Below, piece by piece: positions 1,817-30,305 of a stretch of 64,000 nt of DNA. Every line of letters begins with the position of its first letter. Position 1 is the first letter of the stretch. A model generated the notes under the pieces. The model was not told the origin of the DNA. It made no database searches and worked only from the letters and a program-made list of their open reading frames with translations. A program made the position numbers and the translations under genes. Source of the DNA: Thalassotalea ponticola (GTDB lineage: Bacteria > Pseudomonadota > Gammaproteobacteria > Enterobacterales > Alteromonadaceae); assembly GCF_041379045.1 (NCBI RefSeq), contig NZ_CP166871.1, forward strand, positions 1,364,001-1,428,000, read 5' to 3'.

Positions 1817-3109
1817 ATGTTTCAGCCGGTTAGCTTATTTATCGGATACCGATACAGTCGCAGCCAAAATCGCTCAGGTTTTGTCTCATTTATTACCTTC
1901 TTTTCTATCGCCGGTATCCTACTGGGCGTTGCCTCGTTGATCACTGTGGTTTCGGTGATGAACGGCTTTGAAGGGCAACTTAAACAACGTATTTTGGGGC
2001 TGGTTCCACACGTGGTTATTAGCCCGAAAAATGGCGCGTTTGACGATGTCGATCAGTTTATCGCCTCGTTTAGTGATGATCCGCGGGTCAAAGGAGCAAC
2101 GCCGTACGTGCAAAGCGAAGCGTTTATTCAGTCCCCCGGTCACTTGCAAGGCGTATTAGTACAAGGTATATCACCGCGCTATGAAAGCCAATACGCCTTG
2201 GTTGCCCAGAAGATGCAAATCGGTCAGTTAACCGACTTACAAGCACAACAATACCGCATTATTATGGGCACCACATTGGCGCGCAAGCTCGGCGTGCAAA
2301 TTGGCGAAAAAGTACGCATTGCCTTACCCAACAAAACCATTTTTACCCCCATGGGGCGGGTGCCGGTACAGCGTAATTTCACCCTGTCAGGGGTGTTTCA
2401 AGTTGGCTCAGAAGCCGATCAACACATGGTGTTTATTCATCATCAAGACGCAGCGCGATTAATGCGCCAGCCAAAAAATCACATTGACAATGTGCGCTTG
2501 TATTTACACGATGCATTTGATGCCAAAGCGGTTAGCAGCGAATTGGCACAGCGCATTAATCAAAAAAGTGCGCAACAAAGTGCGCAACAAAATGGGCAAC
2601 AAGGTCAACAAACTGAACAGCCGTTTGACATATCTACCTGGAATGCTAGCCAAGGCAGTTTGTTTGCCGCCGTACAGTTAGAAAAAAACATGATGTGGTT
2701 GATGCTCGGGCTGATTGTTGCCGTTGCTGCCTTTAATATTGTCTCCGCCTTGGTGATGGTGGTTATTGATAAGCAAGGGGAGATCGGTATCTTGCAAACC
2801 TTGGGGATGAAGCGCCAACAAATACTGCAAATTTTTATCACCCAAGGTATGGTTAATGGCCTGTGGGGGACCTTACTAGGCGCTGTTGTCGGCGTGTTAT
2901 TAACCTTAAATATTAACTCTATTTTGTCATTTTTTGGCGTTAACCTTCTCGGCCAAGGGGGCTTTGCCCAAACCTTGCCAATAGAATTGCAAATTGAGCA
3001 GGTCGCACTCATTGTAGCGCTTGCCATTGCAATGAGTTTAATCGCCACTTTATATCCCGCGTATCGAGCATCGAAAACCCAACCTGCAGAGGTATTACGA
3101 AATGAATAA
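1817..3109 (+). CDS. lolC: Lipoprotein-releasing ABC transporter permease LolC
   Basis: This 430-residue inner-membrane permease belongs to the LolC/E family. Together with LolD and LolE it extracts outer-membrane lipoproteins from the inner membrane and hands them to LolA. The N-terminus (LFIGYRYSRSQNRSGFVSF) and first membrane segment (about residues 22-50) are typical. A large periplasmic domain follows, then three C-terminal membrane segments (about 290-420) ending in the family signature LYPAYRAS. A glutamine-rich low-complexity stretch at about residues 248-269 looks like an insertion in the periplasmic domain. It overlaps lolD by 8 bases, so the three genes form an operon. Confidence 0.95.
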   Translation: MFQPVSLFIGYRYSRSQNRSGFVSFITFFSIAGILLGVASLITVVSVMNGFEGQLKQRILGLVPHVVISPKNGAFDDVDQFIASFSDDPRVKGATPYVQSEAFIQSPGHLQGVLVQGISPRYESQYALVAQKMQIGQLTDLQAQQYRIIMGTTLARKLGVQIGEKVRIALPNKTIFTPMGRVPVQRNFTLSGVFQVGSEADQHMVFIHHQDAARLMRQPKNHIDNVRLYLHDAFDAKAVSSELAQRINQKSAQQSAQQNGQQGQQTEQPFDISTWNASQGSLFAAVQLEKNMMWLMLGLIVAVAAFNIVSALVMVVIDKQGEIGILQTLGMKRQQILQIFITQGMVNGLWGTLLGAVVGVLLTLNINSILSFFGVNLLGQGGFAQTLPIELQIEQVALIVALAIAMSLIATLYPAYRASKTQPAEVLRNE

Positions 3110-6257: not shown

Positions 6258-9218
6258 ATGGAACGGTGGTTACTCTGCTTTTTGACAGGAGGTGTTATCG
6301 CCTGCCTGATCCCTGCAAATGTTGGCATATTCTATCTGCTTGCGCTCTATTTGTCTTCTGTTGTTGTACTGTTTTTGCTATCTAAGCTCGTTTTTGCTCT
6401 GTCTAGCCGACAAATCAGCTATTTGGTTATCGCCTTTAGCCTTGGTTTTAGCTACCTTTTGTATAACGCCATTGTTTATCAGTCGCTACGCGGCAATTCG
6501 CTTAATCAATCGCCCAATCATTCGCTCACTAATGAGAAAGAGGGAGGCGCTAGTGCGCTAATAACCCAGTTGGCATCGTTTCGTTTTTACCCGCCGATAA
6601 CCGCTAACCCATACCCAAATCCCGTTCATGTGCGCGCCGAGGTGTTATCGCTTATTCCCAGTTCAGAGTCGCTAGATAACGCTGGCGATAAAAGCACAGA
6701 GACGAGGTTAACAGCGGCAGCAAATCGCGGCGTCAAAGTCACCTTGGCAATAGACGTTATTGACCAACACCCGTTAACAAAACCCATTATTGCGCGATTG
6801 CATTTTAACTCAATCTTGTTACCTCTTGCCCGGCAAGGCGACGGGTCACGCCAAGGTTTGGTGGCGATTAGTCAAGGCGATCGGCTTACATTGCAAGTTA
6901 AGCTTAAGCCGGCACACGGTTTTGCCAATCTGGGGAGTTTTTCCTATGCGCGCTGGCTTAAACACCATGGCATTCACTTTACTGGCTATGTCAAACAAAT
7001 GGAAAACCATCGATTGGATTGGGCCAGTAACGCGGGCTCTGCGGGCTCTATTGTTCGCGATGGCCAAGACGATGCTTATGCTGATGACTACGGCCTTGAT
7101 GACTGGAATCAGGTGATAGTGCAATCGCCCAGTAAGCGCCAGCAAGTTCAACATCGACTAACATTAGCATTCAATCACGGTGATACCCCGATTGCGCCTG
7201 AGCTTAAGGCTTTATTATTGGCACTGTCGATAGCCGATAAAAGCCAAGTTAGCGACGAGCAATGGCAATTACTGCGCGACACAGGTACAGCCCATTTATT
7301 TGCCATATCGGGCTTGCACTTGTCACTTATTGGTACACTGGGTTTTGTCCTTGGGCGGTTGTGTTTATACCTTATTACAAGTTACCGCCTGCTCAGTTGT
7401 TACGGTTATTATTTGCCTCTGCTAAGCAGTATCATTTTGGCGACTGTGTACGCTTACTTAGCCGGTTTTGCCATCCCAACCGTACGCGCGTTGGCGATGC
7501 TAGTGGTGTTGGTGGTGTTGAGTTTGTTAAAACGGCCGTTTATGCCACTTAGATACGTGCTGTTAAGTACTTTTGTGGTAATACTTATCGAGCCGTTTGC
7601 CTTGTTTGACAGTAGCTTTTATTTGTCACTGCTCGCCGTGGTGGTGATCATCTACGGCTTGTTTTACTTTGCACATCGAATGCGCCATCACAGTGCATTG
7701 CGGCGTTGGTTCATCGCGCTAGTGCTGGTACAAGTGTTGGTGTCATTGGTGGCGTTGCCGTTGTCATTGCTGTTGTTTGGCCAAGCGTCATTGGTATCAC
7801 CGATTGCCAACGTTGTGGTGGTGCCGGTGATGTCGATGACGGTGATCCCGCTGTGCTTGCTAGCAACATTAACTAGCGCGTTGTCAGTGCCGCTTGCTCA
7901 TGCCATATTTGAGCTCAGTGCGCACTTGATGCAAGCGTGTCTTTGGTATTTAACCACATTGGTGACGCACTGGGGGTCGGCATTGAATCTGACCAATTTA
8001 GGAGCAAGCCTGCAAGCGGCATTACTGTTGTTGTCTGCTACGGCGTTGTTCAGTTGGCTGTTGCCACTTGATACCAAGGCCAAGGTTAAAATGTTGGTGA
8101 TCAGCGTTAGCGCGTTTTTAGTGATACCGGCAACACTGTCGTCACTAATACAGCAATTGAGTGCAGAGCTAAGCCTCACTAGCGCTAAAGAAAGTGGTGA
8201 CAATGACGCCCGTCAGCCATCACCCATTCAACCCTTGGCCCTTAAGACTTCAGCGACTGAACAGACACCGTGGCAACTGGTGGTGTTTGATGTTGGTCAT
8301 GGCTTGGCGGTATTGATTGAGCCCAATCAACGAGCCGTGTTATACGATACCGGAGCGAGTTACAAAAGTGGTTTTAATTTTGTCGATGCGGTTATCATCC
8401 CGTATTTGCGCTTTAAGTCAATTACCCACCTTGATTACACACTGATAAGCCATGGCGATAACGACCATGCTGGCGGCTTGTCGGCGCTGATAGACGCTCG
8501 GCTAACAGGCGCACTTATCACTAATATCAGCGCTATCGACAGGTATATCGAGCAAGGTGATATGGTCAGCGCACTAAAATCCAATCTAAAACCAAATCTA
8601 AAACCAAAACTAAAACCAACACCAACACCAACACCACAATTGCAATCACATTTAAAAACGGTAAAGCCAGCTCAGTTGGCTAATCAACACCACAAGGCTC
8701 TAAATGCTAATCGCGCGAACACGGTGTTGCACTATGGTTGCTATGCGGGACAGACCATGCGATGGCAGGGGCTAACCATTAGCACCTTGTCACCACAGCG
8801 AGCCGAAGGGGACAAAAACGACGATTCGTGTGTTTGGCTAGTTACGGACAACCACCACAAAGTGCTTATTCCGGGCGATATTTCCGAGCGCATAGAGCAG
8901 CAGTTGTTAGCGCGGTTAGACACCGACTTTAGTGTGGTTATTGCCCCGCATCACGGCTCTAAAACCTCATCTAGTCAGGCGTTTGTCGAACAGCTGCAAA
9001 GCCAATATGTGGTCTATAGCAGCGGTTTTTTAAATCGATGGCAAATGCCTGTAAGTAAGGTTCAAGCGCGTTATCAACAAGCCGGTACAGCCGCGTTTAA
9101 TACTGCGGTAGACGGTATGGTTGTATTTCAATTTTTGCCAAGCGGCGATCTGCCAGATAAGCGCATCGAGGTTTTTACTTATCGGCAACACCTGCGGCCA
9201 TTGTGGCCGTTTAATTGA
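6258..9218 (+). CDS. comEC: ComEC/Rec2 family DNA internalisation protein
   Basis: This 986-residue polytopic inner-membrane protein should form the channel that carries transforming single-stranded DNA into the cytoplasm. It has an N-terminal membrane/DUF4131 region, a competence-domain core (about residues 310-620, containing TAHLFAISGLHLSLIG), and a C-terminal metallo-beta-lactamase-like domain with VFDVGHGLAVLIEP (about 676), SHGDNDHAGG (about 730) and APHHGSKTSSS (about 895). A Lys/Pro/Thr-rich repeat at about residues 772-794 interrupts the last domain and is unusual. The length is somewhat above the usual 750-850 residues, partly because of insertions. Just upstream of msbA, as in many gammaproteobacteria. 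Confidence 0.93.
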   Translation: MERWLLCFLTGGVIACLIPANVGIFYLLALYLSSVVVLFLLSKLVFALSSRQISYLVIAFSLGFSYLLYNAIVYQSLRGNSLNQSPNHSLTNEKEGGASALITQLASFRFYPPITANPYPNPVHVRAEVLSLIPSSESLDNAGDKSTETRLTAAANRGVKVTLAIDVIDQHPLTKPIIARLHFNSILLPLARQGDGSRQGLVAISQGDRLTLQVKLKPAHGFANLGSFSYARWLKHHGIHFTGYVKQMENHRLDWASNAGSAGSIVRDGQDDAYADDYGLDDWNQVIVQSPSKRQQVQHRLTLAFNHGDTPIAPELKALLLALSIADKSQVSDEQWQLLRDTGTAHLFAISGLHLSLIGTLGFVLGRLCLYLITSYRLLSCYGYYLPLLSSIILATVYAYLAGFAIPTVRALAMLVVLVVLSLLKRPFMPLRYVLLSTFVVILIEPFALFDSSFYLSLLAVVVIIYGLFYFAHRMRHHSALRRWFIALVLVQVLVSLVALPLSLLLFGQASLVSPIANVVVVPVMSMTVIPLCLLATLTSALSVPLAHAIFELSAHLMQACLWYLTTLVTHWGSALNLTNLGASLQAALLLLSATALFSWLLPLDTKAKVKMLVISVSAFLVIPATLSSLIQQLSAELSLTSAKESGDNDARQPSPIQPLALKTSATEQTPWQLVVFDVGHGLAVLIEPNQRAVLYDTGASYKSGFNFVDAVIIPYLRFKSITHLDYTLISHGDNDHAGGLSALIDARLTGALITNISAIDRYIEQGDMVSALKSNLKPNLKPKLKPTPTPTPQLQSHLKTVKPAQLANQHHKALNANRANTVLHYGCYAGQTMRWQGLTISTLSPQRAEGDKNDDSCVWLVTDNHHKVLIPGDISERIEQQLLARLDTDFSVVIAPHHGSKTSSSQAFVEQLQSQYVVYSSGFLNRWQMPVSKVQARYQQAGTAAFNTAVDGMVVFQFLPSGDLPDKRIEVFTYRQHLRPLWPFN

Positions 9219-9431: not shown

Positions 9432-11219
9432 ATGCAAAACACCGCGCCTAAGATTGCCGCAGATTCGGCACAACAAGGTACCAACAAGCAAGTCAGTACG
9501 TGGCAACAGTTTCGTCGTCTATTTGGCTATACTCGAGGTCTTCGAGCAGGCTTTGCGTTATCTATTATTGGCATGTTGGCGTACGCCGGCATTGACACCC
9601 TGTTTTTTTCACAACTACAACCACTCATTGACGATGGTTTAACCAACGCCAATCCGAACATCCTAAAATACGCGCCAATTTTTGTCTTAGTCGCCTTCGC
9701 GCTGCGCGGTGTGTGTCACTTTATTGCCACCTATTGCTTGGCCTGGATGGGTAATCACGTGGTGATGCGACTTAGACAGCAACTGTTCGAGCACATCGTT
9801 GCGATGCCGGTGCCATTTCACGATCAAGAGTCAACCGGTAACTTAATTTCAAAAATCACCTACGACACCGAACAATTGCTCAATGCGGTTTCTAAAGCGC
9901 TGTTAACGCTGATCAAAGAAGGCGCCTTTGTTATTGGTTTATTGGGCTTAATGTTTTATTACAGCTGGCAGTTATCGGCGATTTTCTTGTTGATTGTGCC
10001 GGTTGTTGCCGGCGTTGTTGTGGTGGTGTCAAAGCGCTTTCGCGCGGTGAGTTCTCGCATTCAAAAAATGATGGGCATTGTCACCAGTGCCTCAGAGCAA
10101 ACCTTTAACGGTCACAAAGTGGTGTTGACCTTTGGTGGCCAACAACGGGAATTTGAGCGCTTTGCCAAAATTAATAACCAAAATCGCCAACAGCGAATGA
10201 AGCTCGTTGCCGCCAAGGCAAGCAGTGTACCGGTGATTCAAATCATTGCCTCGTTTGCGTTGGCGTTTGTGTTGTATATGGCTGGACAAGACGGCTTTAT
10301 TGAAACCCTGACGCCGGGTATTTTTACCACCGTTGTTACCTGTATGATCATGTTGTTGCGCCCACTTAAGATGCTGACCACGGTCAATAGTGAATTTCAG
10401 CGGGGCATGGCGGCAGCAGCCAGCGTGTTTGAGGTACTCGACCAAGAGGTTGAGCAAGACAGCGGCACATTAACCGTTGATCGGGTTAAAGGCGACATTG
10501 TTTTTGAGGATGTCAGTTTCTCCTATCAAGGCAGTGAAAAACAAGCACTAAAAAACATCAGCTTTGCCCTCGAATCAGGCAAGTCATTGGCGCTAGTGGG
10601 GCGCTCGGGCTCGGGTAAATCGACCATTAGCTCACTATTGTTGCGTTTTTATCACGCCGACAGCGGCGCGGTTAAAATTGATGGCGAAAACATTCGCGAT
10701 TACCAGCTCAGTAATTTACGCCGTCAATTTGCCTACGTGTCGCAACAAGTGGTGTTGTTTAACGATACCTTGGCCAATAACATCGCCTACGGTAAGCCAG
10801 AGGCAACGCGTGCTGAAATTGAAACAGCGGCCAAAGCCGCCCATGTACTTGAGTTTGCCGAAGGTTTACCAGAAGGACTTGATACCAATATTGGTGAAAA
10901 CGGCAGTATGTTAAGTGGTGGTCAGCGCCAGCGGGTGGCCATTGCGCGCGCCTTGTTGTGCGATGCACCTATTTTGATCCTCGACGAAGCCACCAGTGCA
11001 CTTGACACCGAATCAGAGCGTCACATTCAAGACGCATTGACCCATTTGCAAAAAAATCGCACCAGCGTGGTGATAGCGCATCGCCTATCAACCATAGAAA
11101 ATGCCGATAACATTGTGGTTATGGATCAAGGTGAATTAATTGAGCAGGGCAGTCATAGCGAACTGCTCGCCAAAGGCGGTGCCTATGCGCAGCTGCACGC
11201 GTTTCAGTTTGGCCAATAG
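9432..11219 (+). CDS. msbA: Lipid A export ABC transporter/permease MsbA
   Basis: This 595-residue half-transporter flips lipid A-core across the inner membrane. Six membrane helices occupy about residues 30-325. The nucleotide-binding domain carries Walker A GRSGSGKST (about 389), signature LSGGQRQRVAIARAL (about 493), Walker B ILILDEATSALD (about 513) and the switch His in VIAHRLSTIENAD. The next gene is lpxK, the usual msbA-lpxK pairing, which supports MsbA rather than a drug exporter. It has no N-terminal peptidase domain, so it is not a double-glycine-leader exporter. Confidence 0.95.
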   Translation: MQNTAPKIAADSAQQGTNKQVSTWQQFRRLFGYTRGLRAGFALSIIGMLAYAGIDTLFFSQLQPLIDDGLTNANPNILKYAPIFVLVAFALRGVCHFIATYCLAWMGNHVVMRLRQQLFEHIVAMPVPFHDQESTGNLISKITYDTEQLLNAVSKALLTLIKEGAFVIGLLGLMFYYSWQLSAIFLLIVPVVAGVVVVVSKRFRAVSSRIQKMMGIVTSASEQTFNGHKVVLTFGGQQREFERFAKINNQNRQQRMKLVAAKASSVPVIQIIASFALAFVLYMAGQDGFIETLTPGIFTTVVTCMIMLLRPLKMLTTVNSEFQRGMAAAASVFEVLDQEVEQDSGTLTVDRVKGDIVFEDVSFSYQGSEKQALKNISFALESGKSLALVGRSGSGKSTISSLLLRFYHADSGAVKIDGENIRDYQLSNLRRQFAYVSQQVVLFNDTLANNIAYGKPEATRAEIETAAKAAHVLEFAEGLPEGLDTNIGENGSMLSGGQRQRVAIARALLCDAPILILDEATSALDTESERHIQDALTHLQKNRTSVVIAHRLSTIENADNIVVMDQGELIEQGSHSELLAKGGAYAQLHAFQFGQ

Positions 11220-11287
11220 GCCGACGCGTTAACGGCAATCCGCGGTGGAGCACTTGATTACATGCAGATACAGGATAGGAACACAGT

Positions 11288-12292
11288 GTGCGTTTAATTG
11301 AAAAAGCGTGGTTTTTAGACCATCCAATCAAATGGCTGTTATTGCCACTTAGCCCCGTGTTCTGGGCGCTTAGCGCGTTGCGTCGATTACTCTATAAACT
11401 GGGGCTGTTGGCTCAGCCTAAACTTTCGGTGCCGGTGGTGGTTGTCGGCAATATTGGCGTTGGCGGTAACGGTAAAACACCAGTGGTGGTTTTTTTAGTC
11501 GAACAGCTCAAAGCACGCGGTTTTAAGGTGGGCGTTATTAGTCGCGGCTACGGCGGTGACAAGCTTACAGAACCCTTGCTAATTGACGATAATACATCCG
11601 CCCAACAAGGCGGGGACGAGCCGGTGTTAATTTACCAACGCACTAAGGTTCCCGTGGTTGTTAGCCCCGACAGAGTGGCCAACGTAGAGCGCTTAATCGA
11701 GCTTGGTTGCAACCTGGTGATCAGTGACGATGGCCTGCAACACTATCGATTAAAGCGCGATGTGGAGCTTGTGGTCATTGACGGCAAACGCCGTTTTGGC
11801 AATGGTTGGTTACTTCCCGCTGGGCCGCTACGCGAGGGTTTGTGGCGGTTAAATACGGTGGATAGGGTTATTGTTAATGGCGGTTTGGCCGATGTTAACG
11901 AAATGGCCATGCACCTAGAAGCACAACAGCTGGTTAATATACGCAGTCAACAGCGCGTCAGCGTTGCAGAGTTTATCAGCGCTCACAGCCACAATGTGAA
12001 CGCATTAGCCGGTATTGGCTCGCCACAGCGCTTTTTTGATACCTTAACAACGCTTGGTTTTACCCTGCAAAACGCGGTTGGCTTTGTTGACCATCATCAG
12101 TTTAACGAGTGTGATATAACTCAATTTGATTCAAGCGTACCGCTGTTAATGACCGAAAAAGACGCGGTAAAATGTAGTGATTTTACTGGCGACAACGGCT
12201 GGTATTTAACCGTAGACGCACATTTTAGCGATCGCGATAACACCAATTTATTAAATTTAATTACCACGAGATGTAAAAACTATGGCATTTGA
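11288..12292 (+). CDS. lpxK: Tetraacyldisaccharide 4'-kinase LpxK
   Basis: This 334-residue inner-membrane-associated kinase phosphorylates the 4' position of the lipid A disaccharide. The P-loop is in [16 protein letters not shown] (about residues 51-66), followed by GVISRGYGG and the downstream motif [11 protein letters not shown], both typical of LpxK. Translation starts at a GTG with AGGA about 8 bases upstream. It overlaps the Trm112-like gene by 11 bases and shares the operon with msbA and kdsB. Confidence 0.95.
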
Positions 12293-13940: not shown

Positions 13941-16016
13941 ATGAAACACGTAATTGCGGGCGCATTGTGCTCATCGCTATTGCTGTTAGCCGGTTGTAAT
14001 GAAACCACGGCAAGCAGCGCACCAGAACAACCTCAAGCAGCACTTAAAACAGAAAAAACGGCATTGGCTTCAGGTATCGAAAAAGCCAATATGGACACCA
14101 GCGTGCGTCCTCAAGACGACTTTTATTTATACGTTAATGGCGGTTGGTTGAAAAACACCGAAATGCCAAGTGATAAAACAGCGATTGGTTCGTTTTATGA
14201 CTTGCGCGACAAATCTGACGAAGACGTAAAAGCGATTATCGAAGAGCTTGCCTCAGCAAGCGATTTGAAAAAAGGCTCAGACGAGCAAAAAGTGGCGGAT
14301 TTATTTAACTCATTTATGGACGAGAAAACCATCAATGAGCTTGGGGTTAAACCAATTGAGCCAATTTTAGCTGACATTGCGGCACTTGAAAGCAAAGACG
14401 ACTTATCGGTGTTTTTTGCCAAAGCACAAAAAATGGGCTTAGACTCTCCGATTTATTTTTACGTTGGCGTTGATGCGAAAAACTCTGACCGCTACGCGCC
14501 ACACGTATGGCACTCAGGTTTGGGTTTACCAGATCGCGATTACTACTTTAAAGAAGAAGAACGCTTTGTCAAAATGCGTGCTGACTACGTTGCACACTTA
14601 GCAAAAATGTTTGAATTAGCGGGTCAAGACAACCCACAACAAGCGGCCGAGTCTATTATGGCCCTTGAGACCAAAATGGCCGAACACCACTGGACTCGAG
14701 TAAAAACACGTGACAGTGAAGCCCGTTATAACCTAAAGAAAACCGCCGAGTTAAACCAAGTTACCGACGCTATTAACTGGAACGCCTGGTTAAAAGAGCT
14801 TGGCGTTGACAATCAAGCCGACATTATTATTAACCAGCCAGACTTTGTTGAAGCCTTTGGTTCTATTGTTGCCGATACCGATATGGCAACATGGAAAACC
14901 TACTTAACGTGGCAAGTTATCGGTGGTTTTGCGCCGTACTTAAATGACGAGTTAGCACAGCAACACTTTGAGTTTTACGGTAAAAACCTAAACGGTCAGC
15001 AAGAACAGAAGGCACGCTGGAAGCGCGGTGTCAGCTTGGTTAACTCAAACCTTGGCGAAATCATTGGCAAGGTATACGTTGCGCGTCACTTCACCCCTGA
15101 AGCGAAAGAACGCATGACCGACTTGGTTGAAAACTTGCGCGTTGCTTACGGTGAGTCTATTGATTCACTAGAGTGGATGAGCGATGACACCAAAAAAGCG
15201 GCACGAGTAAAACTGGCAGCGTTTACACCGAAAATTGGTTACCCAGACAAGTGGGAAGATTACTCAGCTATTGAGATTAATAAAGACACGTTAGTGGCGA
15301 ATTTGATCAGTGCTGACAAAGTTGGCCACACTAAGCAAATTGAAAGACTGAATGGACCAATTCGCGATTGGGAATGGCACATGACGCCTCAAACGGTTAA
15401 CGCTTACTACAACCCAACCGTTAACGAAATTGTGTTCCCAGCAGCAATCTTACAACCGCCATTTTTCAACCTAGCAGCAGACGATGCGGTTAACTACGGT
15501 GGCATTGGTGCGGTTATCGGCCACGAAATGGGCCACGGTTTTGATGACCAGGGTTCAAAATACGACGCTGACGGTAACATGAAGAACTGGTGGACCGAGC
15601 AAGACTTAGCTGAATTTAAAAAGCGCTCAGAGCAACTGGTTGCCCAATACGACGGTTATCAAGTATTTGACGACTTGAACGTCAACGGCCAGCTTACCCT
15701 AGGTGAAAACATTGGTGATTTATCAGGTTTAACCATTGCTTATCGCGCCTACAAAAACTCGCTAAATGGCGAAGAAGCACCGGTCATTGACGGTTTAACC
15801 GGCGATCAACGCTTCTTTATGGGCTACGCGCAAATTTGGCGTGGCAAGCGCACCGAGCAAGCGATGCGCGAGCGCGTAAATACCGATCCGCATTCGCCTG
15901 GTCACTTCCGCGCAATTGGCTCGTTGTCAAATATGAATGAATTTTATCAAGCATACGACGTGAAAGAGGGCGATAAGATGTACATCGCACCAGAAAAACG
16001 GGTAAAAATTTGGTAA
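13941..16016 (+). CDS. M13 family zinc metallopeptidase, exported lipoprotein (PepO-like)
   Basis: This 691-residue neprilysin-like (M13) endopeptidase has a lipoprotein signal peptide ending in LLLLAGC, with the acylated Cys at residue 19. The zinc site is IGHEMGHGFDDQG (HEMGH at about residues 527-531) with the downstream GENIGDLSG, whose Glu and Asp complete the site. The substrate-binding segment NAYYNPTVNEIVFPA precedes it. An in-frame GTG lies two codons earlier at 13935, but AAGGGA at 13928-13933 is spaced correctly for the ATG at 13941, so that start is preferred. It probably cleaves peptides at the outer membrane or in the periplasm. Confidence 0.92.
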   Translation: MKHVIAGALCSSLLLLAGCNETTASSAPEQPQAALKTEKTALASGIEKANMDTSVRPQDDFYLYVNGGWLKNTEMPSDKTAIGSFYDLRDKSDEDVKAIIEELASASDLKKGSDEQKVADLFNSFMDEKTINELGVKPIEPILADIAALESKDDLSVFFAKAQKMGLDSPIYFYVGVDAKNSDRYAPHVWHSGLGLPDRDYYFKEEERFVKMRADYVAHLAKMFELAGQDNPQQAAESIMALETKMAEHHWTRVKTRDSEARYNLKKTAELNQVTDAINWNAWLKELGVDNQADIIINQPDFVEAFGSIVADTDMATWKTYLTWQVIGGFAPYLNDELAQQHFEFYGKNLNGQQEQKARWKRGVSLVNSNLGEIIGKVYVARHFTPEAKERMTDLVENLRVAYGESIDSLEWMSDDTKKAARVKLAAFTPKIGYPDKWEDYSAIEINKDTLVANLISADKVGHTKQIERLNGPIRDWEWHMTPQTVNAYYNPTVNEIVFPAAILQPPFFNLAADDAVNYGGIGAVIGHEMGHGFDDQGSKYDADGNMKNWWTEQDLAEFKKRSEQLVAQYDGYQVFDDLNVNGQLTLGENIGDLSGLTIAYRAYKNSLNGEEAPVIDGLTGDQRFFMGYAQIWRGKRTEQAMRERVNTDPHSPGHFRAIGSLSNMNEFYQAYDVKEGDKMYIAPEKRVKIW

Positions 16017-16077
16017 CAACTTAGGCCACCGTCAATGCGAGTGGCCTTGGTCAATACCAAGAGTGTTGATATGATGT

Positions 16078-16116
16078 AAAAGCGATCGAGGTGTTGTGCC
16101 TTTGATCGCTTTTTAT
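16078..16116 (+). terminator. Terminator after the M13 peptidase gene
   Basis: AAAAGCGATC and GATCGCTTTT form a 10-bp stem around a 16-base loop, ending in a T-rich tail. A second hairpin without a T-tract (AGGCCAC, 11-base loop, GTGGCCT) lies just before it at 16023-16047. Confidence 0.75.
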
Positions 16117-16209
16117 TTACCTGTTTGTCGCGTTTAGGTTGATTGTTTCCCTTTTGCTTACATTTATACTTAATGAGCAAACATTACACAAACGACAAGG
16201 CGTTAGTAC

Positions 16210-17103
16210 ATGACCGCAATCAGACACCTGCTTCTTTCTGCTATCACTGTTATGACGTTAGCGGTTTTTACATTGGCAAATGCAACGATGAAACCTCACA
16301 TTAATACCAGCCTTCAACTTTGGTCAGTAAAAAATGAGCTAAAGTCAGATTTTAAAACGACCTTGTCACACATAGCCGAGCTTGGCTTTGATGGGGTTGA
16401 ATTTGCCGGTGAATTTGGCTCATATAACAACGACGCCAAAGGGTTAAAGGCGCTACTTGATGACTTAGGTTTAAAAGTGAGCGGGGCCCATGTGCCGTTA
16501 GAGCAACTTACTGGAGAGCGTTTTGAACTGCTTGTTGAGTTTTATCAGATTTTAGAGACGCCAGTATTGATAATTCCGATACATCAATCGGCCTATCAAG
16601 CTGATACAGTGGATCGGTTCATTTCAACCTTGCAAAGTCTGTCAACAAAGCTCAAGGCATACAATATGCGTTTGGGATACCATAATCACTGGCAAGAATT
16701 TGAGCCGTTCAACCAAATCACCTATTGGGATCATATTGCTCAGTCAACGACCAGTGATATTGTTTTGCAACTCGACATCGGTTGGGTCGCTTATGCCGGA
16801 AAAGACCCAGTGCAATACATTAAGCGATATCCCAAAAGAACATTTACCGCACACTATAAAGCCAAACCCACTGGAGTCCAATTCAATAAAGTCAAAGTTA
16901 GCCAAGCAACGCCTAATTACCAAGGCAAACCCTTGATTGGTCAAGATGAGATAAACTGGGCAGAGGTGTTACACGCGCACTTGAGCGTTGGTGGCGGCCA
17001 GTGGGTCGTGGTAGAGCAAGAAGAATATCCGGCAAATCTGACACCATTGCAAGCGGTTGCCGTATCTAAAAACGCCTTAGACAAGCTGATTAAATCTTTG
17101 TGA
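16210..17103 (+). CDS. Exported sugar phosphate isomerase/epimerase-like TIM-barrel protein
   Basis: This 297-residue protein has an N-terminal signal peptide (hydrophobic stretch to about residue 23) and then the AP-endonuclease-2/xylose-isomerase-like TIM barrel. Likely metal ligands sit in GVEFAGEFG, LGYHNHWQEF, LQLDIGWV and VVVEQEEY. The family isomerises or epimerises sugars or inositols; the substrate cannot be read from sequence. An exported member suggests action on periplasmic carbohydrate. It stands between the M13 peptidase terminator and the first exopolysaccharide locus. Confidence 0.8.
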   Translation: MTAIRHLLLSAITVMTLAVFTLANATMKPHINTSLQLWSVKNELKSDFKTTLSHIAELGFDGVEFAGEFGSYNNDAKGLKALLDDLGLKVSGAHVPLEQLTGERFELLVEFYQILETPVLIIPIHQSAYQADTVDRFISTLQSLSTKLKAYNMRLGYHNHWQEFEPFNQITYWDHIAQSTTSDIVLQLDIGWVAYAGKDPVQYIKRYPKRTFTAHYKAKPTGVQFNKVKVSQATPNYQGKPLIGQDEINWAEVLHAHLSVGGGQWVVVEQEEYPANLTPLQAVAVSKNALDKLIKSL

Positions 17104-27741: not shown

Positions 27742-27913
27742 AACGTCATCCTCATATTTCACGTCATCCAAATATTCAACGTCATCCCCGCGCAGGCGGG
27801 GATCTCCAAACCACCAAACGAGCCTTTAATTGTCATCTCCACTATTAACAGACACTCCATATTTTCACGTCAGCCCATAATGAACCGTCATCCCCGCACA
27901 GGCGGGGATCTCC
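27742..27913. repeat. Left palindromic-repeat block beside the GIY-YIG gene
   Basis: Two full copies of a 28-base element (27780-27807 and 27886-27913) read CGTCATCCCCGC, a four-base centre, then GCGGGGATCTCC; the GC-rich parts form a stem. Short partial copies, CGTCATCC, precede them at about 27743 and 27762. The sequence between the copies, including CCAAACGAGCCTTTAATTG, recurs in the right block after the GIY-YIG gene. These are REP-like elements with no coding content. Confidence 0.9.
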
Positions 27914-27994
27914 AATCAAGACAAACAATTTTCAAACTAGATACCAAAAATTCACTATGATAAAGATCCCCTCTAATTGAAAAGGACTTCAATT

Positions 27995-28282
27995 ATGAAA
28001 CAACCTGCAGTTTATATTCTTTCGAATAAAACCCATTCAGTGCTATACGTTGGTGTGACAAGTAATTTAACAAGACGAATTTACCTGCATAAACAGCATT
28101 GTGTTGAAGGCTTCACTAAACGGTATAACGTTCATAACCTAGTTTATTTTGAGCTTTTTGATGACATGGAAAATGCGATTTATCGCGAGAAGCGCTTGAA
28201 ACGATGGGAGAGAAGTTGGAAGGTTCGATTAATTGAACAAACAAATCCTGAATGGCTCGATTTGTATTACCAATTGCTTTAA
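27995..28282 (+). CDS. GIY-YIG nuclease superfamily protein
   Basis: This 95-residue protein starts at the ATG at 27995 behind AAAAGGA; an upstream TTG at 27977 is less likely. It has the GIY-YIG core in a variant form: VYILSNKTHSVLYVGVTSNL with the following Arg of TRRIYLHKQ, a Tyr-Arg-Glu-Lys segment (NAIYREKRLKRW) supplying the catalytic Glu, and WLDLYYQLL at the end. This is the single-domain COG2827/UPF0213-like family, whose members are often small and of unknown role. It sits between two blocks of palindromic repeats that resemble each other, suggesting a mobile or repeat-associated gene. Confidence 0.88.
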   Translation: MKQPAVYILSNKTHSVLYVGVTSNLTRRIYLHKQHCVEGFTKRYNVHNLVYFELFDDMENAIYREKRLKRWERSWKVRLIEQTNPEWLDLYYQLL

Positions 28283-28311
28283 TCCTGACTCGAGTTTTTA
28301 TGCATCCTCAA

Positions 28312-28343
28312 GAGATCCCACACAACGACATTGTGGGATGACG
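28312..28343. repeat. Inverted variant of the palindromic repeat
   Basis: GAGATCCCACA, a 9-base loop, then TGTGGGATGACG. The ends (GAGATCCC and GGGATGACG) match the 28-base element read on the opposite strand, but the stem core differs. It directly follows the GIY-YIG gene and could also act as a transcript-end hairpin. Confidence 0.75.
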
Positions 28344-28430
28344 TTGTTTGCGATGGGCGCCGATTTGCGTGAGGTGCATAGGGCGCACGATTCATAAGCC
28401 TATTTCCCGCGCTCGAAATTAAACGTCATC

Positions 28431-28555
28431 CTTTATTTCAACGTCATCCCCGCGCAGGCGGGGATCTCCTAGACACCAAACGAGTCTTAATTGTCATCCT
28501 CACAATTTTACGAATCCCCACATTTAACGTCATCCCCGCGAAGGCGGGGATCTCC
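28431..28555. repeat. Right palindromic-repeat block beside the GIY-YIG gene
   Basis: Two full copies of the 28-base element (28442-28469 and 28528-28555) in the same orientation as the left block, preceded by a partial CGTCATCC at 28433. The spacer carries ACACCAAACGAG, then TTAATTGTCATC, in the same order as in the left block. The block as a whole is therefore an imperfect direct repeat of 27762-27913, enclosing the GIY-YIG gene. Confidence 0.9.
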
Positions 28556-28761
28556 AAACCACAAACAGAGCCTAAAATACCTCACTCTAACTGCGATACT
28601 TTTATTGTGATTGACTCGTAACGGATTTCTACCAAACTAAAAAATGAAAGCAATGGAATTGCCCCGTAACTTACTAAATTAAATGTAAAATATTTATTAA
28701 GTCGGCTGGTGAAACTACGATGCTAATACGTGACGAAAAACGCAAATAAAAGGAGATTATC
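28556..28761. promoter_or_regulatory. Upstream region of the microcin-like gene
   Basis: This AT-rich 206-base region must contain the promoter of the peptide gene. It ends in AAAAGGAGATTATC directly before the ATG, a strong Shine-Dalgarno sequence (AAGGAG) at correct spacing. I cannot assign a -35/-10 pair with confidence. Confidence 0.45.
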
Positions 28762-28977
28762 ATGCGTGAATTAACAGTTAATGAACTATCAGAAATCAAC
28801 GGCGCTTATTCAACCGAAGAGCTAGGTGCAGCAGTATTTGCCGGCGGTGTGGCAGGTGCGTTAAGTGGCTCGCTAGCCGGTGGCGTAGGTGCTGGTCCAG
28901 GAGCCTTTACGGGGGCAGTTATTGGCGGAATCAGTTATTTAAGCTACGAGTTGTACTTAGAGTACATAGCCAACTAA
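28762..28977 (+). CDS. Microcin/class II bacteriocin-like peptide with double-glycine-type leader
   Basis: This 71-residue peptide begins MRELTVNELSEINGAYS, very like the colicin V leader (MRTLTLNELDSVSGG), with a probable cleavage after Gly-Ala at residue 15. The rest is Gly/Ala-rich and hydrophobic (VFAGGVAGALSGSLAGGVGAG), as in the membrane-active class II microcins and Blp-type peptides, and ends in an aromatic, acidic tail. It has a strong AAGGAG ribosome binding site and its own terminator. No peptidase-containing exporter is in the window, so export would need one elsewhere. Toxic activity is inference. Confidence 0.75.
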   Translation: MRELTVNELSEINGAYSTEELGAAVFAGGVAGALSGSLAGGVGAGPGAFTGAVIGGISYLSYELYLEYIAN

Positions 28978-29023
28978 CGCTTACATTTAAGCATTACACT
29001 AAAAACTTTAATCCAATAGACAC

Positions 29024-29053
29024 AAAGGCAGTCTTAACTCGCTGCCTTTTTAT
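29024..29053 (+). terminator. Terminator after the microcin-like gene
   Basis: AAAGGCAG, a 10-base loop, then CTGCCTTTTTATT. It lies between the peptide gene and the small membrane-protein gene, so read-through would be needed to co-express them from one promoter. Confidence 0.75.
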
Positions 29054-29067
29054 TGAAGGACTAAGTC

Positions 29068-29232
29068 ATGACAACAAAACAATTTAATCTAATGGTAATA
29101 ACCAGCGTTGCAATTAGCTTAGGGATAATTTCTAGCAAAGTATCATTTTTGCCATTGGTTATCATCGCTGTTGTATTGGGTGTAGCTGGGCAATTACTTT
29201 GCCGATACGCCAGCAAATATTGGCTTAAATAG
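29068..29232 (+). CDS. Small membrane protein, candidate immunity protein
   Basis: This short gene encodes 54 residues, starting MTTKQFNLMVITSV behind GAAGGA with good spacing and ending YASKYWLK. Two hydrophobic segments (about residues 8-22 and 26-46) are separated by a short polar turn, with a basic C-terminus. Small two-helix membrane proteins next to class II bacteriocin genes are commonly immunity proteins, and it lies 90 bases after the microcin-like gene. No sequence family is recognised; the role is inferred from position and topology. Confidence 0.55.
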   Translation: MTTKQFNLMVITSVAISLGIISSKVSFLPLVIIAVVLGVAGQLLCRYASKYWLK

Positions 29233-29783
29233 CTGCGCGCCTATAACATTTGATCTAAGGGTATTTATACCTAACAGTTTGCCGGAAGTAATTCCGGTTA
29301 ACTTTACTTACAGTATGTGAGGTTTGTCATTAAGCCATATAGCTCGTGACTCGCTAAACATCACAAACATCCGCAACAAAATACGCAAAAACCTACCAAA
29401 AACTGCTAGAAAAACACACTTATCGCACTAGTTAAACGGCAAGACACAATTTAACCAATATCGCTTACATTTTTTACCAAAATGGCGTAGCAACACACGT
29501 CTAATTTTTTTATAATGCCAAATCAATATAAGTACAACGTTACCAGGTGTTCAAACATTCACCACTTGTGATTTGGTATTGCTAAAAATATAAGCAAGCT
29601 GTTTGAATACTAAGCAGTATTTTCGGCAATAACGGTGCGGCACTCAAATATATATCCATTAGCAATTTACCGCTAAGGTGATGATTACAATGCCGTTGTT
29701 ATTGCGCTGTTTATGGTGCCATGCAGTGTGGGCAATTTAATTGCTATTAGCACTTTAAACAAAAAGAAAAGGGTAGTAGTATT
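29233..29783. other. Long intergenic region upstream of rfaH
   Basis: About 550 AT-rich bases. It contains a perfect hairpin CCGGAA-GTAA-TTCCGG (29282-29297) that may end the small membrane-protein transcript, and a good -10 sequence TATAAT at 29511-29516 with only a weak -35 match. The RNA leader before rfaH could be about 250 bases. No open frame with a ribosome binding site was seen. Confidence 0.5.
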
Positions 29784-30305
29784 ATGACCGCAGTAGCTAA
29801 GAGTGCTTGGTATGTTTTAACCAGCAAACCAAGAGAGGAGCAACGTGCTCACGACAACTTAGTGTCGCAAGGATTAGAAGTATTTTTACCGAAAGTTGCT
29901 ACGGTAAAAAAGAAAAAGGGAATTAAGGCTGTATCTCTTGACCCATTATTCCCCAATTATTTATTTATTCGCTTAAATCCTGAACAAGCTAACTTTAATG
30001 CCGTGCGTTCTACGCGTGGTGTTGGCAGTTTTGTTAAATTTGGCTTGCAACATGCGGTTATTAGCAACGACATTATTAATGCGTTACAACACCACCAAGT
30101 AAGCAATAACGAACCGAAAACGCTAGAGCAGTTGCTTAATTTACAGGTGGGCGACAAAGTGCAAATTAATCAAGGACCGTTTGCTGGTTTAGAAGCCATT
30201 TACAAAGCAAAAGACGGTCTTGAACGCAGCATTTTAATGGTTAAAATGCTGGGTAAAGAAAACGATGTGCCGGTAGATAACCAGCATTTTGATAAAGTAA
30301 GCTAA
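29784..30305 (+). CDS. rfaH: Transcription antiterminator RfaH
   Basis: This 173-residue NusG paralogue has an N-terminal NGN domain (WYVLTSKPREEQRAHDNL, then VFLPKV and LFPNYLFIRL) and a C-terminal KOW-type domain (GDKVQINQGPFAGLEAIYKA). The region after position 60, with VRSTRGVGSFVKFG, is RfaH-like rather than NusG-like. RfaH loads on RNA polymerase paused at ops sites and allows transcription of long surface-polysaccharide operons. An ops-like element lies about 150 bases downstream, just before wzb-wza-wzc, which supports the call and predicts the target operon. Confidence 0.9.
   Translation: MTAVAKSAWYVLTSKPREEQRAHDNLVSQGLEVFLPKVATVKKKKGIKAVSLDPLFPNYLFIRLNPEQANFNAVRSTRGVGSFVKFGLQHAVISNDIINALQHHQVSNNEPKTLEQLLNLQVGDKVQINQGPFAGLEAIYKAKDGLERSILMVKMLGKENDVPVDNQHFDKVS

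Follow-up and report, generated by a model that had tools for sequence, protein, structure and literature searches.

Two small adjacent genes of Thalassotalea ponticola, encoding a 71-residue peptide with a double-glycine-type leader and a 54-residue membrane protein, appear to form an orphan bacteriocin/immunity cassette – one whose peptide would be exported in trans – and we put the probability of this reading, in which killing and immunity are predicted, at about three in four. The genes lie within a stretch of 64,000 nucleotides (hereafter the window) that is part of a single-contig 3.35-Mb genome. No published description of the pair was found in the literature searched. In marine Thalassotalea the pair represents a well-supported candidate bacteriocin family, and a second genus has homologous pairs as well.

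Table 1. Features of the cassette, in window positions, and of one G001 locus (G and L numbers denote genomes and loci).
Feature	Position	Strand	Basis or remark
5'-leader box and ribosome binding site (AACGCAA..AAAAGGAGAT)	28739..28761	+	Common to related cassettes
71-aa ATG ORF	28762-28977	+	Putative precursor: 15-aa leader and 56-aa core
15-codon double-glycine-type leader MRELTVNELSEINGA	28762..28806	+	Predicted cleavage after Gly-Ala
56-aa core and stop	28807..28977	+	Aligned homologues, AlphaFold model, composition
Intergenic terminator-like hairpin followed by T tract	29025..29051	+	Stem 29025-29048
54-aa two-helix membrane protein, candidate immunity protein	29068-29232	+	Adjacent homologues, AlphaFold model
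Double-glycine peptide ORFs of G001	L052:5746-6094		Past 124-aa PCAT C-terminal fragment

A sequence-only reading of this DNA had picked out a peptide of 71 residues with a colicin V-like leader and a Gly/Ala-rich core, followed 90 bases after its stop by a 54-residue two-helix membrane protein, with ribosome binding sites at both genes, and all of this holds. AAAAGGAGATTATC stands directly 5' of the peptide ORF and GAAGGACTAAGTC directly 5' of the 54-aa ORF, both with good ribosome binding sites, and the spacing is indeed 90 bases. The leader MRELTVNELSEINGA is identical to the MccV signal peptide at eight of 15 residues, taking the MccV letters from PMC10231218. Class II microcin leaders are described as 15-18 aa long (PMC10233263) and as ending in GG or GA (PMC9746304, PMC10233263), as does the leader of the 71-aa precursor; the Gly-Ala site, which the same reading had regarded as unusual, is thus an ordinary one.

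The predicted core (5.36 kDa) has a GRAVY of 0.72, a charge of about -4, no Cys, and 41% Gly+Ala. Read by eye, it contains two GxxxG ladders, G28-G32-G36-G40 and G47-G51-G55, with Pro46 between them, and it terminates in ..YLSYELYLEYIAN, where the Ser/Gly-rich siderophore motif of class IIb microcins is absent. An AlphaFold model made from a ten-row alignment has helices at residues 18-38 and 44-68 (mean pLDDT 77.8, pTM 0.58). GxxxG motifs are known from bacteriocins thought to insert into membranes (PMC5380434). When the core is shuffled at constant composition, 0.2% of shuffles of the whole core and 3.3% within the Gly-rich segment reach its GxxxG count, a moderate excess only, and the length of its longest ladder is unremarkable (reached by 7% and 21%, respectively).

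Among Pfam families, Bacteriocin_IIc (PF10439) matches peptide residues 2-57 (E 2.3e-5) with 24.7 bits, under its gathering cut-off of 27.1, and a protein database's precomputed table, which uses another model release, assigns this family to the peptide. Other Pfam matches are also sub-threshold (MccV, E 0.006; DUF6861, 1e-5; DAP_B, 0.08), an NCBIfam search gave no match, and fold searches returned common helical hairpins only, with microcin E492 among them at background level. The peptide's nearest named relative, from Thalassotalea sp. HSM 43, is annotated as hypothetical, and among 17 matches in the protein database one, from Pseudoalteromonas arctica, is 64% identical. The adjacent 54-aa protein is modelled by AlphaFold as two helices, at residues 3-24 and 27-52 (mean pLDDT 77.6, pTM 0.38). 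A small membrane protein adjoining the toxin gene is a class II microcin trait, and the immunity proteins of this class are reported to range from 51 to 216 aa (PMC10233263); the conserved neighbour here is a candidate for such a protein, its protective role being predicted.

The sequence-only reading implied that the peptide should have leader-type homologues, that the 54-residue frame should be conserved, and that a peptidase-domain ABC transporter with an HlyD-type adaptor should be encoded elsewhere in the genome, and each of these was found. Strong full-length matches to the peptide are present in five of 15 Thalassotalea genomes – that of the window, G009 (71% identity), G011 (65%), G006 (63%), and G003 (51%) – with weaker matches (E 2e-4 to 0.04) in three of these five and in two more. 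The 54-aa protein is more divergent, with 42% (G009), 39% (G003), and 35% (G011 and G006) identity to the window copy; at E <= 1e-3 it is matched in exactly the same five of 59 genomes, each time adjoining the peptide.

Because synonymous changes exceed non-synonymous ones between relatives, the two frames are evidently not chance ORFs and are under purifying selection. For the peptide frame, comparison of the window with its nearest relative, G009, gives a pS of 0.70 and a pN of 0.20, and the close relatives G011 and G006 differ by 13 synonymous changes and one non-synonymous change. For the 54-aa frame the corresponding values are a pS of 0.81 with a pN of 0.37, and 10 synonymous changes with one non-synonymous; between G011 and G003 the ratio is about 1, synonymous changes not being in excess. 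On these comparisons the membrane protein is less constrained between the more distant pairs and is evolving faster than the peptide. The usual pattern is a conserved leader with a variable core, whereas window and G009 show the reverse, the core (pN 0.17) being better conserved than the leader (pN 0.29), a point against the orphan-bacteriocin reading.

In both the window and G009 the pair is located between genes for an NTP_transf_5 protein and RfaH, in gaps of about 2.05 kb and 2.1 kb, respectively. The same gap is only 0.4-0.5 kb long in G010, G007, G004, and G013, and 1.4 kb in G008, where it contains an unrelated 312-aa ORF; none of these five has the cassette there, and the stretches fetched from G005, G006, and G002 gave no match to RfaH. 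The neighbouring genes are different in G006, G011, and G003. Because it is absent from the same gap in relatives and lies beside other genes elsewhere, the pair is, on its distribution, an accessory cassette. A 27-base palindromic repeat (GTCATCCCCGCG.AGGCGGGGATCTCC; positions 27781-28555) occurs four times in the gap before the window cassette and nowhere else in the window at <=3 mismatches, and a stand-alone GIY-YIG gene (27995-28282) lies among the copies.

Homologous pairs are also found outside the genus. Of 395 family genomes, 23 had matches at E <= 1e-4 to a profile of ten peptide homologues, and ten regions were fetched from nine of the 18 matched non-genus genomes. In G094 (L127), genes for a C39-peptidase ABC protein (PCAT; 9771-11942) and an HlyD protein (15606-16850; Pfam HlyD_3, 3.5e-11) are on one strand, and between them lie a peptide ORF closely homologous to that of the window (14668-14892, E 7.8e-31), a 54-aa homologue of the membrane protein immediately after it (14475-14639), and other double-glycine peptide ORFs. 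A second pair (peptide 8954-9154, membrane protein 8692-8850) is situated about 0.6 kb past the PCAT gene. An HMM of the five Thalassotalea membrane proteins recovers both G094 proteins, at 5e-11 and 6e-7, among the 4,661 ORFs of the fetched loci, and hhalign gives the second a probability of 95%. G102 has a weak match to this HMM (0.09, or 4e-6 with G094 included in the HMM) in an ORF whose sequence overlaps the peptide gene's end; the other seven fetched genomes have no 54-aa homologue at E <= 0.5, and other small membrane ORFs adjoin several of their peptides. The G094 pairs tie the family to a class II microcin-type PCAT/HlyD cluster. The G094 stretch (L127:1-19725) has the form of a multi-peptide microcin-type island, in which one PCAT and HlyD are surrounded by six or more double-glycine peptide ORFs, two of these ORFs having near-identical upstream segments.

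The genome of the window encodes a single PCAT (L002:7116-9407, 763 aa), located 0.66 Mb from the pair. The Cys-His-Asp triad described for PCATs (PMC10233263) is represented by C31/H104/D120, residues also present at the aligned positions of all 12 PCATs with which this one was compared. Neither Walker A nor LSGGQ is disrupted, and bacteriocin transporters, 4ry2 and 8vp3 among them, are the PCAT's best sequence matches of solved structure. An HlyD protein (L002:9467-10903, 478 aa; Pfam HlyD_3, 7.9e-19) is encoded before the PCAT, and two proteins in the genome have two OEP (TolC-family) repeats each above cut-off. The close grouping of precursor, immunity, PCAT, and MFP genes that is a class II microcin trait is therefore seen in G094 and not here.

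This PCAT has no evident local cargo, a leader-motif search of the 18 kb around it revealing no peptide ORF. Nor was one found at the related PCAT loci of G009, G006, G011, G003, and G001 (at G009 one motif match falls inside the PCAT gene itself, and the G003 contig starts 568 bases before the PCAT), whereas all five loci of the other PCAT type (G014, G013, G008, G002, G012) have one or more leader-motif peptide ORFs. Conversely, the window gene is the sole match in its genome to a 16-row profile of double-glycine peptides of the genus at E <= 10 and to the leader DNA pattern, and a genome search with PF10439 gives only one other match, at E 0.33 inside a 698-aa frame; judged by these searches it is the only convincing leader-type cargo in the genome. 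Since the genome has an exporter lacking local cargo and a cargo lacking a local exporter, one of each, export in trans is the simplest reading. The MccV exporter has been described as highly promiscuous (PMC10231218). With one cargo and one exporter lying far apart, export in trans is directly testable.

Several other genes are found at the exporter locus. A 59-aa membrane ORF is located just upstream of the HlyD-PCAT genes (L002:11088-11267) and in G009 (L078:8571-8747), the two being 58% identical, and a search of 11 other exporter loci gave no significant match; it is a candidate for an immunity protein, a regulator, or an exporter accessory. A protein of 132 aa encoded beside the PCAT gene (L002:6419-6817) has a signal-like N-terminus, contains numerous KGKCGEGK repeats, and gave no Pfam match. 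These repeats are reminiscent of the EGKCG-type copper-binding RiPP precursors. An IS4-type transposase gene (L002:4955-6325) is close by.

Within the genus, the PCATs are split by a 100/100 branch, and all five pair genomes are among the six on one side, with the pair in none of the nine other genomes, five of which have PCATs on the other side and four no strong PCAT (Fisher p 0.002, ignoring kinship). The sixth genome on the window's side, G001, has other orphan double-glycine peptides. Mapped onto the genus PCAT tree, the pair requires two changes, 22 of 500 shuffles needing no more. However, the G094 PCAT belongs to the other side, with 62-77% identity to the five PCATs there and 42-52% to those on the window's side, and its inclusion gives three changes, equalled by 58 of 500 shuffles. 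The association with one PCAT clade thus fails outside the genus, and the pair goes with PCAT presence and not with PCAT type; G094, whose PCAT is of the other type although it has two pairs, argues against an exclusive partnership of pair and PCAT type, while the main reading is left standing. The leader DNA pattern occurs in nine of the 15 genomes, all of them among the 11 with a strong PCAT (p 0.011), with no match for the reversed control.

G001 also carries a 124-aa C-terminal PCAT fragment (L052:4189-4563) about 1.2 kb before its two double-glycine peptide ORFs (Table 1). The fragment is 58-79% identical to PCATs of the other type and 52-61% to those of the window's side, and the locus is possibly a decayed microcin cluster. 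Orphan cassettes may then be remnants left by decay of a local exporter – as the G001 fragment suggests – and dispersed orphans may be taken over by a second exporter.

The cassettes share sequences upstream of the peptide gene. A box pattern derived from seven aligned cassettes (AACGCRA-N0-5-AAAGGARAT-N1-7-ATG) has eight matches in the 15 genus genomes, one of them in the genome of the window, and one match for the reversed control. All eight precede double-glycine peptide ORFs and are in the five pair genomes, and seven of these ORFs are followed by a small membrane protein gene; seven of the eight places went into the pattern, so the independent information is its absence elsewhere and the extra match in G003. 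That match precedes a 47-aa double-glycine ORF (L051:215-358) lying directly before the toxin cassette and matching Pfam ComC weakly (16.6 bits against 20.4), which is a possible inducing peptide. Inverted repeats seen by eye just before the box at L049, L050, and L051, ATAGGCT..AGCCTAT in G011 and G006 and AAGGTTGAA..TTCAACCTT in G003, are possibly an upstream terminator or a regulatory hairpin.

In G009 two cassettes are arranged in tandem: one is homologous to the window pair, and the other combines a two-Cys peptide with another membrane protein than that of the pair. Their upstream regions are 81% identical, as would be expected for swapped promoter-leader modules. The two-Cys peptide matches the microcin E492 model at E 5e-4, with 20.6 bits against a cut-off of 50. 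This second cassette type, with the same 5' box, encodes a 74-75-aa two-Cys double-glycine peptide and a 69-aa membrane protein and is present in G009 (L048:6853-7080 and 6585-6794) and G006 (L054:3053-3277 and 2795-3004), where another similar 70-aa membrane ORF comes after it.

A terminator between the two genes, claimed by the sequence-only reading, is supported by a stem followed by T's with a z of -4.1 (-3.6 over the entire intergenic stretch), although it is missing from the output of a simple terminator scan over 28300-29800. Its presence there is no peculiarity, as that reading had supposed, since a hairpin is found at six of the eight peptide/membrane-protein junctions examined (the window, both G009 cassettes, G011, G006, and the second G094 pair), with z from -2.4 to -6.5 and with G011 and G006 being near-copies; it is absent from the junctions of G003 and the first G094 pair. 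The stems differ in sequence, and long T tracts follow them in the window, G011, and G006. The hairpin may reduce expression of immunity relative to toxin, or stabilise the toxin message. Taken further, these features could be combined tentatively into a dispersed regulon for microcin production in this Thalassotalea lineage, in which stand-alone cassettes are swapped as modules of promoter, 5' box, and leader, a single cargo-less exporter operon serves them in trans, and a hairpin that is rewritten yet positionally kept sets the toxin:immunity ratio; this is conceivable, and the odds are somewhat against it.

In the mechanism that we propose, the single PCAT would recognise the 71-aa precursor through its double-glycine-type leader and cleave it after Gly-Ala, and export would proceed via the PCAT and the HlyD-type adaptor encoded 0.66 Mb away and then through an outer-membrane channel. 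The mature 56-aa peptide, a predicted glycine-zipper helical hairpin, would insert itself into the inner membrane of competitors, probably related ones, and disrupt it, and the 54-aa protein would block it in the inner membrane of the producer, thereby conferring immunity. Whether such a peptide acts by diffusion, as a microcin, or while bound to the cell surface, as in the contact-dependent Cdz system, the sequence fits both, and the Cdz-like form – in which the exported peptide aggregates on the surface of its producer and kills on contact only – is compatible with the other steps of the orphan-cassette explanation. As judged by eye the peptide fits the four published sequence criteria for Cdz-like bacteriocins, namely a length of 60-151 aa, a leader ending in G[G/A/S], glycine zippers flanked and not interrupted by Pro or charged residues, and a short, charged or polar C-terminus (PMC5380434); a small membrane immunity candidate adjoins it, and its core is Cys-free, with the Gly+Ala content (41%) and GRAVY (0.72) given above. 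However, the C-terminus fits least clearly, since Tyr and Leu are abundant in it too, the excess of GxxxG motifs over shuffles is only moderate and the longest ladder unremarkable, and no exporter of the C39 type, the only type sought, lies within 10 kb of the pair. We regard contact-only killing as rather unlikely. 'Class II microcin' is not the sole label that the sequence allows. That label, proposed by the sequence-only reading, thus stands in part: leader, homologues, and exporter components agree with it, while the export genes are not adjacent and Cdz-like sequence criteria also fit.

Two further explanations dispense with a working weapon. The peptide could be a secreted double-glycine signal, for instance in biofilm control – a role such peptides have in a cyanobacterium (PMC4997328) – with the 54-aa protein as its membrane receptor or partner. 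The core is strongly conserved, as a signal would be, and in G003 the 47-aa ORF with its weak ComC match and shared 5' box lies just upstream; but a glycine-zipper helical hairpin with a small two-helix neighbour has the anatomy of toxin and immunity, the pair is patchy (5/15) and has, in G009, a neighbouring second peptide that differs in its core and comes with a membrane protein of its own, and the window ORFs scanned (17.5 to 30.3 kb) include no kinase or receptor, all of which make signalling improbable. Less probable still, the pair could be a toxin/immunity relic that is no longer exported or expressed: it is isolated from any exporter, repeats and a stand-alone GIY-YIG gene accompany it in a variable gap, and loss of exporters near such peptides does seem to occur, to judge from the G001 fragment. 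Against this, both frames are open with good ribosome binding sites, the 5' box is shared, selection is evident across species, and an exporter with its catalytic residues persists in the genome. An orphan cassette exported in trans accordingly seems the best account of the pair.

A cassette far from its exporter would be missed by searches that start at the PCAT neighbourhood, an example being the Cdz screen, which in its first step covers about 10 kb around a C39-type exporter/T1SS (PMC5380434); the shared 5' box may help in finding more orphan cassettes. The verified class II microcins number only ten, all from E. coli and Klebsiella, and the survey reporting them covered Enterobacterales, Vibrionaceae, and Pasteurellaceae (PMC9746304). 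Compared with known systems, the match to Bacteriocin_IIc extends over most of the peptide's length but falls below the family's cut-off. The Cdz bacteriocins of Caulobacter (CdzC/D/I) are similar in length, leader, glycine zippers bounded by Pro/Glu, a partly polar C-terminus, and a small transmembrane immunity candidate, but here there is one zipper peptide per pair and the pair is not beside a T1SS. From class II microcins such as microcin V and E492, which belong to Enterobacteriaceae, the Thalassotalea pair differs in the remoteness of its export genes, in a core of 56 aa against 60-90 aa (PMC10233263), and in having neither Cys nor a visible Ser/Gly-rich tail in that core. It shares with them the 15-aa leader length, the residues in common with MccV, a permitted GA site, a small membrane protein next door, and PCAT, HlyD-type, and TolC-family proteins in the genome, and its homologues in G094 are housed within a PCAT/HlyD cluster.
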